Below, in pieces: positions 17,478 through 24,058 of a DNA stretch of 64,000 bases. Position 1 is the first letter of the stretch; every line of letters begins with the position of its first letter. The stretch is from Aliiroseovarius sp. PrR006 (lineage in GTDB: Bacteria > Pseudomonadota > Alphaproteobacteria > Rhodobacterales > Rhodobacteraceae), in the NCBI RefSeq assembly GCF_010500215.1, contig NZ_JAAGOY010000007.1:496001-560000 (forward strand). Reading direction: 5' to 3'. The translations under genes and the position numbers were made by a program. The notes below the pieces were generated by a model, which worked only from the letters and a program-made list of their open reading frames with translations, ran no database searches and had not been told where the DNA came from.

Positions 17478-17804
17478 GAAATCATCCTATCCAGTTGGTC
17501 CATTGGGTCTTGGACAAGATGCACAGGTGAAGCAGCAGGCCGAAACGTTTTTTGCAATTTTGGGCGAATTTCCGGTGAAGTTGTGTTTTTTGTGATCACA
17601 CCTTAAAATGTGTGATCACAAATCATTAAATTTCAGCAAATCAGCTTGATTGCGAATCTTCTTTCACCGCAAGCGACGCCAGATCGACCGCGCGCGCTTT
17701 TCGACTTTCGGATAGCGACGTAAACGGGGAACCGATCGCTTTACAATTGCTGGCAACTCTGCCTCAGTGGCAAATGGAATAGCCCTTTGCCCGAGTGATC
17801 TTGA
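17478..17804. other. Divergent promoter region of sucC and a glycosyltransferase gene
   Basis: These 327 bases separate two divergent genes and contain the paired TGTGATCACA sites at 17591-17620. The AT-rich stretch AAATCATTAAATTTC follows on the glycosyltransferase side. No small gene or RNA was recognised. Confidence 0.7.
17591..17620. promoter_or_regulatory. Paired TGTGATCACA sites upstream of sucC
   Basis: TGTGATCACA occurs exactly at 17591-17600 and 17611-17620, centres 20 bp apart. The pair lies 114-143 bp upstream of the sucC ATG, a distance that fits an activator better than a repressor. The same arrangement precedes sdhC. Confidence 0.75.
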
Positions 17805-18794
17805 ATGCCCGAACATAGCTGGTCCGTAGTCTCAACCGTGCGCGAACCACTGCCGCTTGTTCTGGCCTTTGCGTGCCATCACCTGAGCCTTGGTGCACAG
17901 ACCGTGCATCTATTCTTCGACGACCCCGATGATCCGGCCGCCCCTATCTTGGCGGCGATCCCCGGTGTGGAGGTCACCTTGTGCGACGCAGCCCATTGGA
18001 ACGCTTTCGAGCTTGGCAAACGCCCAGCATGGCAGACACGGCGCCAAACGTTGAACGCCAATCTGGTGGCTCAAAGGCAGCAGACAGACTGGCTTTTGCA
18101 TGCCGATGCGGACGAGTTTCTGTGGGCGCCCGACGGCATCGAGGCCGACCTTTCCCGCGCCGACACCTGGCTGCATATCCCCAATCTGGAACGTGTCTGG
18201 ACTGCACCAGAAAGCGCAATTTTCGACGGTGTGTTCCGCGCACCGGGTCTACCGCGTTGGGTGCGTGAACAAGCCTATGGCGCCTCCGAGGCCTATCTAC
18301 AAAGCGGGCTTTCGGGGCATGCGTCAGGCAAGACGATGGCGCGGTTGTCTCAGCAAAAGTTCATCGGCATCCATGCCGTCAAAGAGAAGTTCCACGGCAA
18401 GGCTTCACCGGGCAAAACCACCGCACAGACACGGATATTGCACTTTGACGGGATGACGGCCCGCCACTGGCTGCTCAAATCCCTGCGCTATGCGGCGCAA
18501 GGCAAGGCGCTGCTTCACTCGCTTCACACCCGGCGTCGGATCGGCATCGAGCGGGTCATAAACGCGAACGATCCTTTGACAACGGGGCGCGCGCTTCATG
18601 CCGAAATCTTTCAGCTGTCTGATACGCAGCAGGAGCTGCTTCGGGCGCATGACGCGCTTCTGACCTGCCCGCTTCACCTTGAACAAACCGTGGCGTCCCT
18701 TGCACCCGAAGTGGCGGTCGATTTCTCGGCAGAACAGTTTGACGCCCCCCTTGCGCCCGCGCTGGACGAGATCATCAAGAAGATCCGCAAATAG
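17805..18794 (+). CDS. Glycosyltransferase family 2-like protein
   Basis: A 329-residue cytoplasmic protein of the Glyco_tranf_2_4 type. It opens like a nucleotide-sugar transferase (WSVVSTVREPLPLVLAFACH) and has the metal-binding motif HADADEFLW near residue 100. The C-terminal part is rich in arginine and histidine (GMTARHWLLKSLRYAAQGK). Substrate is unknown. It is alone and divergent from sucC, between the suc operon and mdh, with no other polysaccharide gene nearby. The ATG at 17805 is the first in frame. Confidence 0.8.
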   Translation: MPEHSWSVVSTVREPLPLVLAFACHHLSLGAQTVHLFFDDPDDPAAPILAAIPGVEVTLCDAAHWNAFELGKRPAWQTRRQTLNANLVAQRQQTDWLLHADADEFLWAPDGIEADLSRADTWLHIPNLERVWTAPESAIFDGVFRAPGLPRWVREQAYGASEAYLQSGLSGHASGKTMARLSQQKFIGIHAVKEKFHGKASPGKTTAQTRILHFDGMTARHWLLKSLRYAAQGKALLHSLHTRRRIGIERVINANDPLTTGRALHAEIFQLSDTQQELLRAHDALLTCPLHLEQTVASLAPEVAVDFSAEQFDAPLAPALDEIIKKIRK

Positions 18795-18798
18795 ACGC

Positions 18799-18832
18799 AA
18801 AAAAATTGCGCCGCTCAAGGTGAGCGGCGCAA
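18799..18832 (-). terminator. Terminator of mdh
   Basis: A 12-bp stem, TTGCGCCGCTCA at 18806-18817 with TGAGCGGCGCAA at 18821-18832, is followed on the minus strand by a run of seven T (18805-18799). Confidence 0.9.
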
Positions 18833-18861
18833 CGTCTTAGTCAGCAGTATTGATACTGGGC

Positions 18862-19824
18862 TTATGCCAGCGAGCTGTCGATGCCCTTACAGGCTTCAAC
18901 CAGACCCTTCACCGCATCAACCGACTTGTCGAACATCGCTTGCTCGTCTTTGTTCAGTTCGATGTCGATGACTTTCTCGATGCCGTTGGCGCCGATGATG
19001 GTCGGAACACCAACATAGAAGCCGTCCAGGCCATAGGCACCATCAACGTAAGCGGCGCAAGGCAGCAGACGCTTCTGGTCGTTCAGGTAAGCCTGAGCCA
19101 TTTCGATCGCCGAAGCAGCCGGGGCATAGTAAGCCGAACCGGTTTTCAGCAGGCCAACGATCTCGGCGCCACCGTCACGGGTGCGCTGAACGATGGCGTC
19201 CAGTTTCTCTTGGCTGGTCCAGCCCATTTTCACCAGATCCGGCAGCGGGATGCCGCCAACGGTCGAGTAACGGGTCAGCGGAACCATGGTGTCGCCGTGG
19301 CCGCCCAGTACGAAGGCGGTGACGTCGCGCATGGACACGTCGAATTCGACCGACAGGAAGTGACGGAAGCGTGCCGAGTCCAGAACGCCAGCCATGCCGA
19401 CCACTTTCTCGTGCGGCAGGCCCGAGAACTCGCGCAGAGCCCAAACCATGGCGTCCAGCGGGTTGGTGATGCAGATCACGAATGCGTTCGGGGCGTGCTC
19501 TTTGATGCCTTCGCCAACCGATTTCATGACTTTCAGGTTGATGCCCAGCAGGTCATCGCGGCTCATGCCCGGCTTGCGCGGAACACCGGCGGTAACGATG
19601 CAGACGTCTGCGCCAGCAATATCTTCGTAGGACGTGGTGCCCGACAGCGCTGCGTCGAACCCTTCAACGGGGCCGCTTTCTGCGATGTCGAGTGCTTTAC
19701 CCTGGGGGATGCCGTCCGCGATATCAAAGAGGACAACGTCGCCCATTTCTTTCAGTGCAGCGAGGTGAGCAAGGGTGCCACCGATCATGCCGCTACCGAT
19801 AAGCGCAATCTTGGGTCTGGCCAT
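18862..19824 (-). CDS. mdh: Malate dehydrogenase
   Basis: The 320-residue NAD-dependent enzyme of the LDH-like type oxidises malate to oxaloacetate. It has the dinucleotide motif IGSGMIGG, the substrate-binding [13 protein letters not shown] loop, NPLDAM, and the catalytic [10 protein letters not shown] histidine. It has its own terminator and probably its own promoter, since the glycosyltransferase gene intervenes between it and sucC. The Shine-Dalgarno GGAG sits between short inverted arms TGATC and GATCA (19830-19842). Confidence 0.97.
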
Positions 19825-19982
19825 GAGTGTGATCTCCGATCAGTTGTTTTCGGGCGCATGCGTAGTCGGAAAGTGCCTTTCGCGCAAGAGCGCTGCGCTG
19901 CGGCGTCACGGATGACTTGCAACAGAATGCGACACGCGATAGCGCTAAAGCGCCAATTTTCCAGACTTTTGAAGGATGTCAC

Positions 19983-22786: not shown

Positions 22787-22856
22787 CCCGGCTTACGCGC
22801 TTAAAACAAATTCGGCGGGCCGCCCCTGCGCCCGCCTCGACACTTGGAGAGCTTTG

Positions 22857-23891
22857 ATGGCCAAAACCAATCCCGGACGCTTCTTTGAAGACTACAAGCT
22901 GGGCGACGTGATCGACCACGCCGTGCCGCGCACCGTGGCCGAAGGCGAACGCGCGCTGTATCACGCGCTGTATCCCGCCCGCCATGCGCTCTATTCCTCG
23001 GACGAGTTTGCGGGGGCGTGCGGGCTGGAAGGCTCGCCTATCGACGACCTGATCGCCTTCCACGTGGTGTTCGGCAAAACCGTCCCCGACATCTCGCTGA
23101 ACGCCGTCGCCAACCTTGGTTATGCCGAAGGCCGCTGGCTGAAGCCCGTCTATCCCGGCGATACCCTGCGCTCGCAATCCGAGGTGATCGGGCTGAAGCA
23201 GAACTCGAACGGGAAGTCGGGCGTTGTTTGGGTCCGGACCCGCGGGTTCAACCAGATGGACGAGCCGGTGATGGAGTATGTCCGCTGGGTCATGGTGCGC
23301 AAAGGCGATCTGGACGCCCCTGCCCCTGAAACCGTGATCCCTGAATTGAAAGGTGTGCTGGAGGTGGGCGACCTGTCGATCCCCGAAGGTCTGTCCTTCG
23401 CGGACTACGACTTCACACTCGCCGGTGAACCGCATCGCTGGGGCGATTACGAGGTCGGCGAAAAGATCGACCACGTTGACGGCGTGACCGTCGAAGAAGC
23501 CGAACACATGATGGCGACCCGCCTGTGGCAGAACACCGCGAAGGTGCATTTCGACGCGACGTTCCGCCCCGATGGTCAGCGCCTGATCTATGGCGGCCAC
23601 GTGATCTCGATGGCGCGCGCGCTGTCGTTCAATGGTCTGGCCAACGCCCAGATGATCGTAGGCCTGAACGGTGGGGCGCACGCAAACCCCTGCTTCTCGG
23701 GCGATACGATCCGCGCTTGGTCCGAGGTTCTGGACAAGGCCGACACGGATGCCCCCGGTGTCGGTGCTGTTCGCCTTCGTCTGGTCGCCGTCAAACACGG
23801 CGCGCCGGAATTTGCGCTGAAAGGCGACGACGGCAAATACCTGCCCGAGGTTATGCTGGACCTCGATTATTGGGCGCTGATGCCGAAGTAA
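22857..23891 (+). CDS. mch: Mesaconyl-CoA hydratase (MaoC-type)
   Basis: A 344-residue protein with two MaoC-like hot-dog domains. The first contains FFEDYKLGDVIDHAVPRTV and a DDLIAFHVVFGKT region, the second YEVGEKIDHVDGVTVEEAEH and GGHVISMARALSFNG. It hydrates mesaconyl-C1-CoA to beta-methylmalyl-CoA in the ethylmalonyl-CoA pathway for acetyl-CoA assimilation. The ATG at 22857 follows GGAGAG. Its position after the mcl2-like gene and before sdh matches the order I recall in Rhodobacter sphaeroides. Confidence 0.88.
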   Translation: MAKTNPGRFFEDYKLGDVIDHAVPRTVAEGERALYHALYPARHALYSSDEFAGACGLEGSPIDDLIAFHVVFGKTVPDISLNAVANLGYAEGRWLKPVYPGDTLRSQSEVIGLKQNSNGKSGVVWVRTRGFNQMDEPVMEYVRWVMVRKGDLDAPAPETVIPELKGVLEVGDLSIPEGLSFADYDFTLAGEPHRWGDYEVGEKIDHVDGVTVEEAEHMMATRLWQNTAKVHFDATFRPDGQRLIYGGHVISMARALSFNGLANAQMIVGLNGGAHANPCFSGDTIRAWSEVLDKADTDAPGVGAVRLRLVAVKHGAPEFALKGDDGKYLPEVMLDLDYWALMPK

Positions 23892-23901
23892 GACATCCGG
23901 T

Positions 23902-23928
23902 GGCGGGGCGTTTCACGGACGTTCCGCC
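23902..23928 (+). terminator. Terminator-like hairpin after mch
   Basis: GGCGGGGCGT at 23902-23911 pairs with ACGTTCCGCC at 23919-23928 (two G-T pairs). There is no T-run, so efficiency is uncertain. Confidence 0.4.
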
Positions 23929-24027
23929 GCCTCTCGGTATGTGCCCTCGCGTCAATTTCCCGTTGGAATCTTGCTGACGGGGCGCCTTTCCCGACCATTA
24001 ATGTCGGGATACAATGGCATACCATTC

Positions 24028-24058
24028 TGTGATCACATATCCGAAAACTGTGATCACA
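24028..24058. promoter_or_regulatory. Paired TGTGATCACA sites upstream of sdhC
   Basis: TGTGATCACA occurs exactly at 24028-24037 and 24049-24058, centres 21 bp apart. The pair lies 123-153 bp upstream of the sdhC ATG, nearly the same distance and spacing as the pair before sucC. Confidence 0.75.

Follow-up and report, generated by a model that had tools for sequence, protein, structure and literature searches.

We analysed a stretch of 64,000 nucleotides from the genome of Aliiroseovarius sp. PrR006 (contig NZ_JAAGOY010000007.1, positions 496,001 to 560,000 of the forward strand; "the window" below), in which the 10-bp palindrome TGTGATCACA (core GTGATCAC; half-sites TGTGA and TCACA with no gap between them) is found in paired form upstream of the tricarboxylic acid (TCA) cycle genes sucC and sdhC, and as a single copy upstream of a gene for a GntR-type regulator. 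Sequence comparisons make it very probable that these copies are the operators of an AkgR regulon, in which AkgR would bind the pairs and activate the sucCDAB-lpd and sdhCDAB operons, and would repress its own gene, akgR, from the single site. The regulon is already known from Cereibacter (Rhodobacter) sphaeroides and the window is a new member of it; what is added here, with no claim that it is absent from print, is the paired and phased layout of the sites, their joint absence with the regulator in relatives, and the predicted operator on the akgR core promoter.

The five exact copies of TGTGATCACA in the window begin at 7873, 17591, 17611, 24028 and 24049, where a mean of 0.05 copies is expected by chance (none of 100 shuffles reached five). 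Their arrangement is as the original prediction described it. Two predicted operators, a gene-proximal copy at 17591..17600 and a distal copy at 17611..17620, are 20 bp apart and lie 114-143 bp upstream of the sucC ATG at 17477; two more, a distal copy at 24028..24037 and a gene-proximal copy at 24049..24058, are 21 bp apart and lie 123-153 bp upstream of the sdhC ATG at 24181; and the fifth, at 7873..7882, stands ahead of the GntR gene. All five were returned by the exact-word search, and the two pairs were also returned by the pair scan (below). The whole genome (3,218,800 bases in 15 contigs) contains nine exact copies of the word and none of the reversed-word control. The four copies beyond the window fall inside ntrX, inside mfd, inside a cobK-like gene and between the convergent genes folC and zapE (names by NCBIfam; the cobK-like gene scores 229.8 bits against a cut-off of 231, just short of it), that is, three are intragenic and one is between convergent genes, and exact copies were not found to be common in non-TCA promoters.

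Scans of the whole genome for pairs with up to three mismatches over the 20 specified bases gave one pair at 21-bp spacing (sdhC) and one at 20-bp spacing (sucC), with nothing in the controls and no further pair that could mark an additional AkgR target. Exact-copy pairs at spacings of 16-26 bp were again those of sucC and sdhC and nothing else, as were exact pairs of the 8-base core at spacings of 18-24 bp. The paired form marks exactly two promoters of this genome, both of them promoters of TCA operons, and the idea of a local TCA regulon with which the original prediction had started is upheld by this result. Copies with up to two mismatches do not rise above background level in the window (31 against 26.1 expected), and weight is therefore given to exact or near-exact copies only. 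Single copies with one mismatch occur at at least 85 places in the genome (control 11), and further single-site AkgR targets may be among them.

The GntR gene (7892..8542, plus strand) encodes a protein of 216 amino acids with a GntR helix-turn-helix and an FCD domain (PF00392 and PF07729, both over cut-off). Its closest relatives in a scan of named genomes were four proteins from Aliiroseovarius (84-99% identity), and it is 71% identical to a GntR protein encoded one open reading frame (ORF) past sdhB in G051, a genome of seven contigs that was identified as C. sphaeroides from a 6-kb segment of contig C2, which matches plasmid NZ_CP030275.1 of strain 2.4.1 at 100% identity; a segment taken from contig C7 matched no plasmid. 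The gene order in G051, lpd-sucB-sucA-sucD-sucC-mdh-...-sdhC-sdhD-sdhA-...-sdhB-ORF-GntR, is paralleled by the locus tags RSP_0962 to 0968, 0974 to 0976, 0979 and 0981 in excerpts of PMC4344238 and PMC8920488, so the G051 GntR gene is equated with RSP_0981 through this parallel order, not from a tag-bearing sequence. In an excerpt of PMC4344238, RSP_0981 is predicted to regulate the succinyl-CoA synthetase, succinate dehydrogenase and 2-oxoglutarate dehydrogenase genes, and no CRP or ArcAB analogues that would control central metabolism are predicted for R. sphaeroides. An excerpt of PMC6365646 calls AkgR a transcriptional activator and reports the GTGATCAC motif.

That the window protein is the ortholog of AkgR (RSP_0981) is well supported by its two domains, its identity to the gene at the RSP_0981 position, the presence of GTGATCAC at both sucC and sdhC and its co-occurrence with the sites (below), and AkgR, which had been put forward as the obvious candidate, now also agrees with the published targets and motif as far as those excerpts go. 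The window system resembles that of C. sphaeroides in its regulator, its operons and its core motif, and G051 has pairs at both promoters (one mismatch at sucC, exact at sdhC). It differs in that akgR adjoins lpd in the window and not sdhB, in that the sucC spacing is 20 bp rather than 21, and in that akgR has an operator of its own, which is absent in G051 even though TTGACC is kept there. Asp206 of the window protein (8507-8509) is invariant in 13 AkgR sequences; at this position, which was judged by eye, a metal-binding His is usual in FCD proteins, and the AkgR ligand site may be altered there.

The pairs are conserved family-wide. In the Rhodobacteraceae, which include abundant marine and photosynthetic bacteria, exact pairs (6-16 bases allowed between copies) were found in 187 of 295 genomes, that of the window included, with one or two in each, and the reversed control gave none. 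All 30 pair loci whose position was determined after fetching lie upstream of sucC (27) or sdhC (3). Among fetched promoters with at least 200 bp upstream, 55 of 67 sucC regions and 22 of 35 sdhC regions carry a pair with up to four mismatches; these sets include loci that were fetched for carrying an exact pair, and with such loci removed the values are 27 of 39 and 15 of 28, respectively. The pairless regions come from genomes in which AkgR was not detected (AkgR-negative, as defined below) in 12 of 12 cases for sucC and in 12 of 13 cases for sdhC, the remaining one being from G030. The spacing, for which 16-27 bp was allowed, is 21 bp in 69 of 77 pairs and 20 bp in eight. Single-base deviations from the word affect one of its two end bases in 51 of 55 cases, which leaves the core GTGATCAC nearly invariant.

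These comparisons establish that the pair is kept in relatives, but is it kept together with the regulator? With a match of at least 61% identity taken as AkgR-positive, the 119 family genomes other than the window's divide into 102 positives and 17 negatives, and an exact pair is present somewhere in 71 of the positives and 2 of the negatives (Fisher p = 8.7e-6, uncorrected for relatedness). All 17 negatives were then compared closely with 13 positives, ten of which had no exact pair in the family scan. A sucC pair with 0-3 mismatches is present in 13 of 13 positives, where it lies 127-142 bp before the gene, and in 4 of 17 negatives (G019, G033, G096 and G114); among the 13 negatives without it, G021 offered just a SucC paralog of about 50% identity. 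An sdhC pair with 0-4 mismatches is present in 12 of 13 positives (not G030) and in 2 of 16 negatives (G096 and G114); G019 gave no SdhA match, and sdhC could not be placed in G021.

On an IQ-TREE tree of SucC and SdhA from 29 genomes (an earlier FastTree tree, itself with low support in places, agreed in outline) AkgR absence requires five changes, four of which fall on branches with good support, and each of the two pairs, at sucC and at sdhC, likewise requires five. The AkgR-negatives nested among positives are the pair G048 and G102 and the single genomes G109 and G029, the last two with poorly supported placement. When G096 and G114 are left out, the sucC pair tracks AkgR in four of four independent contrasts. 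AkgR and the pairs are present or absent together through several separate losses, with one exception that is unexplained (G114, below). Two genomes show intermediate patterns: G109 retains, where the proximal copy usually stands (-116), a copy with one mismatch but lacks the partner copy, so that the lone copy looks like a relic of a pair, and G033, which groups with the AkgR-negatives, has a 47% identical AkgR adjoining lpd, an exact sucC pair and no sdhC pair, a hint that sucC may have been the first AkgR target.

The distance from the pair to the predicted promoter is nearly fixed at sdhC. In 17 of the 22 sdhC promoters that have a pair, the first base of GTGAC is 57-60 bp past it; three others have GTGAC at 49, 50 and 70 bp (a shift of about one helical turn), and two lack it. 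The distance between pair and ATG in these same 22 promoters ranges from 102 to 190 bp; as a control, GTGAC was found upstream of the pair in 6 of the 22 regions (mean length 148 bp). Alignment of 20 sdhC promoters on GTGAC gives a consensus with a TATT block 16-18 bp after it. In the window the predicted -35 box is GTGACT (24116..24121, plus strand), which begins 58 bp past the pair, and the predicted -10 region that corresponds to the TATT columns is TTATTCC (24139..24145, plus strand). GTGAC followed by A or T is absent from the sdhC upstream region in 11 of 12 AkgR-negative genomes checked, and the sole genome that has it is G048, an apparent recent loss. For sucC, the 47 promoters (of 58) in which pair and ATG are 100-125 bp apart were aligned, and the strongest block past the first two bases is TTT at +47..49, with another at +68..72; many other columns also stand above the shuffled null, which ignores relatedness. 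The matching sequences in the window, a -35-like TTTCGG (17540..17545, minus strand) and a -10-like GCATCT (17517..17522, minus strand), are weak candidates, because no more than 20 of 58 promoters contain the sucC word (AA, A or C, C, C or G, any base, TT). Neither the sucC nor the sdhC promoter of the window gave a hit in a simple sigma-70 scan, so the boxes at both promoters are drawn from the alignments only. Measured from the middle of the proximal site, the predicted -35 boxes would thus be about 62 bp (sdhC) and about 51 bp (sucC) downstream, or roughly six and five turns of the helix, respectively; the sdhC distance is firm and the sucC boxes are weak.

The single copy at akgR is differently placed, 9 nt ahead of the start codon and on the predicted core promoter. 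The predicted -35 box, TTGACC (7856..7861, plus strand), overlaps the TGA stop of the upstream gene and is conserved as TTGAC in relatives, and a weak -10-like CACAAT (7879..7884, plus strand) would overlap the 3' end of the operator and lie 7 nt before the ATG. Among 105 akgR upstream regions, drawn from the best-matching orthologs, 90 contain, in the 110 nt before the gene, a site with no more than one mismatch, and in 78 it is exact. In those 90 regions the site starts 17-18 nt before the start codon in 53, TTGAC begins exactly 17 nt before the site in 73, and the first in-frame start codon comes 5-7 nt after the would-be -10 hexamer in 78. With the operator on the core promoter, repression would be expected, as would a transcript whose 5' end is at the start codon or close to it, and the single site therefore suggests autorepression by AkgR.

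From the sites, their conservation, their spacing and their joint absence with the regulator we infer binding, oligomeric state and direction of regulation as follows: the AkgR protein encoded at 7892-8542 would bind TGTGATCACA as a dimer, and at sucC and sdhC two dimers would sit side by side, about two helical turns apart to judge from the spacing. They would activate from about 90-120 bp upstream of the predicted transcription start, and the near-fixed distance to the sdhC -35-like box suggests that they would do so from a fixed face of the helix. The sucCDAB-lpd and sdhCDAB operons, which cover the TCA cycle between 2-oxoglutarate and fumarate, would be switched on jointly, and from the copy between the akgR -35 box and start codon AkgR would repress its own, probably leaderless, message. 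A more detailed version of this scheme is tentative, and we would put its chances somewhat below even: throughout the family, AkgR would occupy the doubled operators, two turns apart, as two cooperating dimers and would activate TCA promoters from a position upstream of the -35 box by about six turns at sdhC (rarely five or seven) and five turns at sucC, the single akgR operator would fill later and shut off the leaderless message, and the wiring would be gained or lost as a unit. If this is correct, one word would fix the sign of regulation as well as its threshold, through the number of its copies and where they stand. Such a site grammar, in which phased pairs serve activation and a lone copy on the core promoter serves self-control, would allow the AkgR regulon to be predicted in many genomes and gives clean promoter constructs for tests.

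Several observations weigh against AkgR control in this form. G030 has AkgR yet has no sdhC pair, and G019 (91% complete), G096 (77% complete) and G114 carry pairs with no AkgR found. G114 is rated 100% complete in 320 contigs, has both pairs and has a best AkgR match of 39% identity, and it is a real exception to the co-occurrence unless akgR fell in an assembly gap. If G096 and G114 are counted as AkgR-negative, the contrasts agree in 3-4 of 4 cases for sucC and mostly in 2-3 of 4 for sdhC (none is opposite for sdhC), and the contrasts are too few for a sign test to reach 0.05 (p 0.125 at best). At akgR itself the would-be -10 hexamer matches TATAAT at just 2-4 of 6 positions across relatives, TTGAC/TTGA overlaps, in many genomes, the Asp and stop codons that end the upstream gene and may be conserved partly as coding sequence, and the operator is absent in 15 of the 105 upstream regions, that of C. 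sphaeroides included. Finally, akgR is one of 13 genes for FCD regulators in the window's genome, and a paralog could bind the word too: two core pairs outside the family (L211 and L221) adjoin genes for other FCD proteins, 33% identical to AkgR.

Many regulators of the FCD type act as repressors, and the operator at akgR is in a position suited to repression. That AkgR represses, and does not activate, sucC and sdhC from the pairs is nevertheless unlikely: the predicted -35 boxes come about 46-58 bp after the pairs, so that a dimer bound at a pair would not obstruct polymerase, the near-fixed distance from pair to box at sdhC is as expected for an activator, and AkgR is termed an activator in the excerpt of PMC6365646. 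It is quite improbable that the pairs are bound mainly by a different FCD-type GntR regulator encoded in the same genome, in spite of the number of FCD proteins, the L211 and L221 loci, and the retention of both pairs in G114 where AkgR was not detected. An excerpt of PMC6365646 also proposes the GTGATCAC palindrome as the site of PS417_07240, a GntR-type regulator of Pseudomonas simiae that is reported there to be 32% identical to AkgR, so that the word would be common to related regulators, although that protein belongs to a deoxyribonate oxidation cluster and not to TCA genes, and one palindrome is mentioned in the excerpt, at -47 to -40 from the start codon. Against another FCD binder and for AkgR stand the absence of the pairs where AkgR is missing in several separate lineages, the site borne by akgR itself in 90 of 105 cases, and the agreement of the motif and targets with those excerpted above. 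The half-sites TGTGA and TCACA resemble those of E. coli CRP, but CRP sites have 6 bp between half-sites where there are none here, and the presence of the pair follows AkgR; binding by a CRP/FNR-type protein is very improbable and was rejected on half-site spacing and co-occurrence. A chance or neutral repeat, which has in its favour the background level of two-mismatch copies in the window, has a negligible probability and is refuted by the window counts and shuffles, the empty reversed control of the genome, the 187 family genomes with exact pairs, the sucC pair in all 13 positives examined and the persistence of the pair, in the same position, across many genera, and the original prediction was correct to call the doubled palindrome unlikely by chance.

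Beyond the family, core pairs were found in 8 of 380 other genomes of the class (the reversed control matched one genome, G367), and the TCA proteins that were tried against the fetched flanks (up to 1.5 kb) of these eight pairs gave no match. In 285 non-family genomes of the class the best AkgR match was 41% identical, among the matches listed. The neighbouring FCD genes at L211 and L221 (above) lie in such class genomes, so that operators in pairs may be widespread within this branch of the FCD proteins. The best solved-structure match to AkgR by sequence is the GntR-type protein McbR of E. coli (4p9f; E 5.5e-24), which matches along most of the protein (residues 17-205) and is a remote homolog with another operator and other targets.

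The genes downstream of the two paired sites were assigned by family models, all over cut-off. sucC (16284..17477; NF001913) leads the run sucC-sucD-sucA-sucB-ORF-lpd, in which sucD (15398..16279; NF004230), sucA (2-oxoglutarate dehydrogenase E1; 12359..15337; NF006914), sucB (10868..12355; NF004309) and lpd (8605..9990; TIGR01350) are, like sucC, on the minus strand. The ORF between sucB and lpd (121 amino acids, 10487-10852) had no Pfam match at E 0.001 and no NCBIfam match at E 1e-12. On the plus strand, sdhC (24181..24564; TIGR02970) is the first gene of sdhCDAB, and sdhD, sdhA and sdhB follow within 24575..27562 (TIGR02968, TIGR01816 and NF004616).

Outside the window, the stretch between the convergent genes folC and zapE (L004:1225-1630, G000:C4) contains one exact and one one-mismatch copy of TGTGATCACA. 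A search against Rfam gave no match at gathering scores over L004 and none at E up to 1 over 1200-1660. The stretch folds strongly (z = -3.14), has a promoter-like TTGACG/TATAAA upstream, judged by eye, and is possibly an unnamed small RNA.

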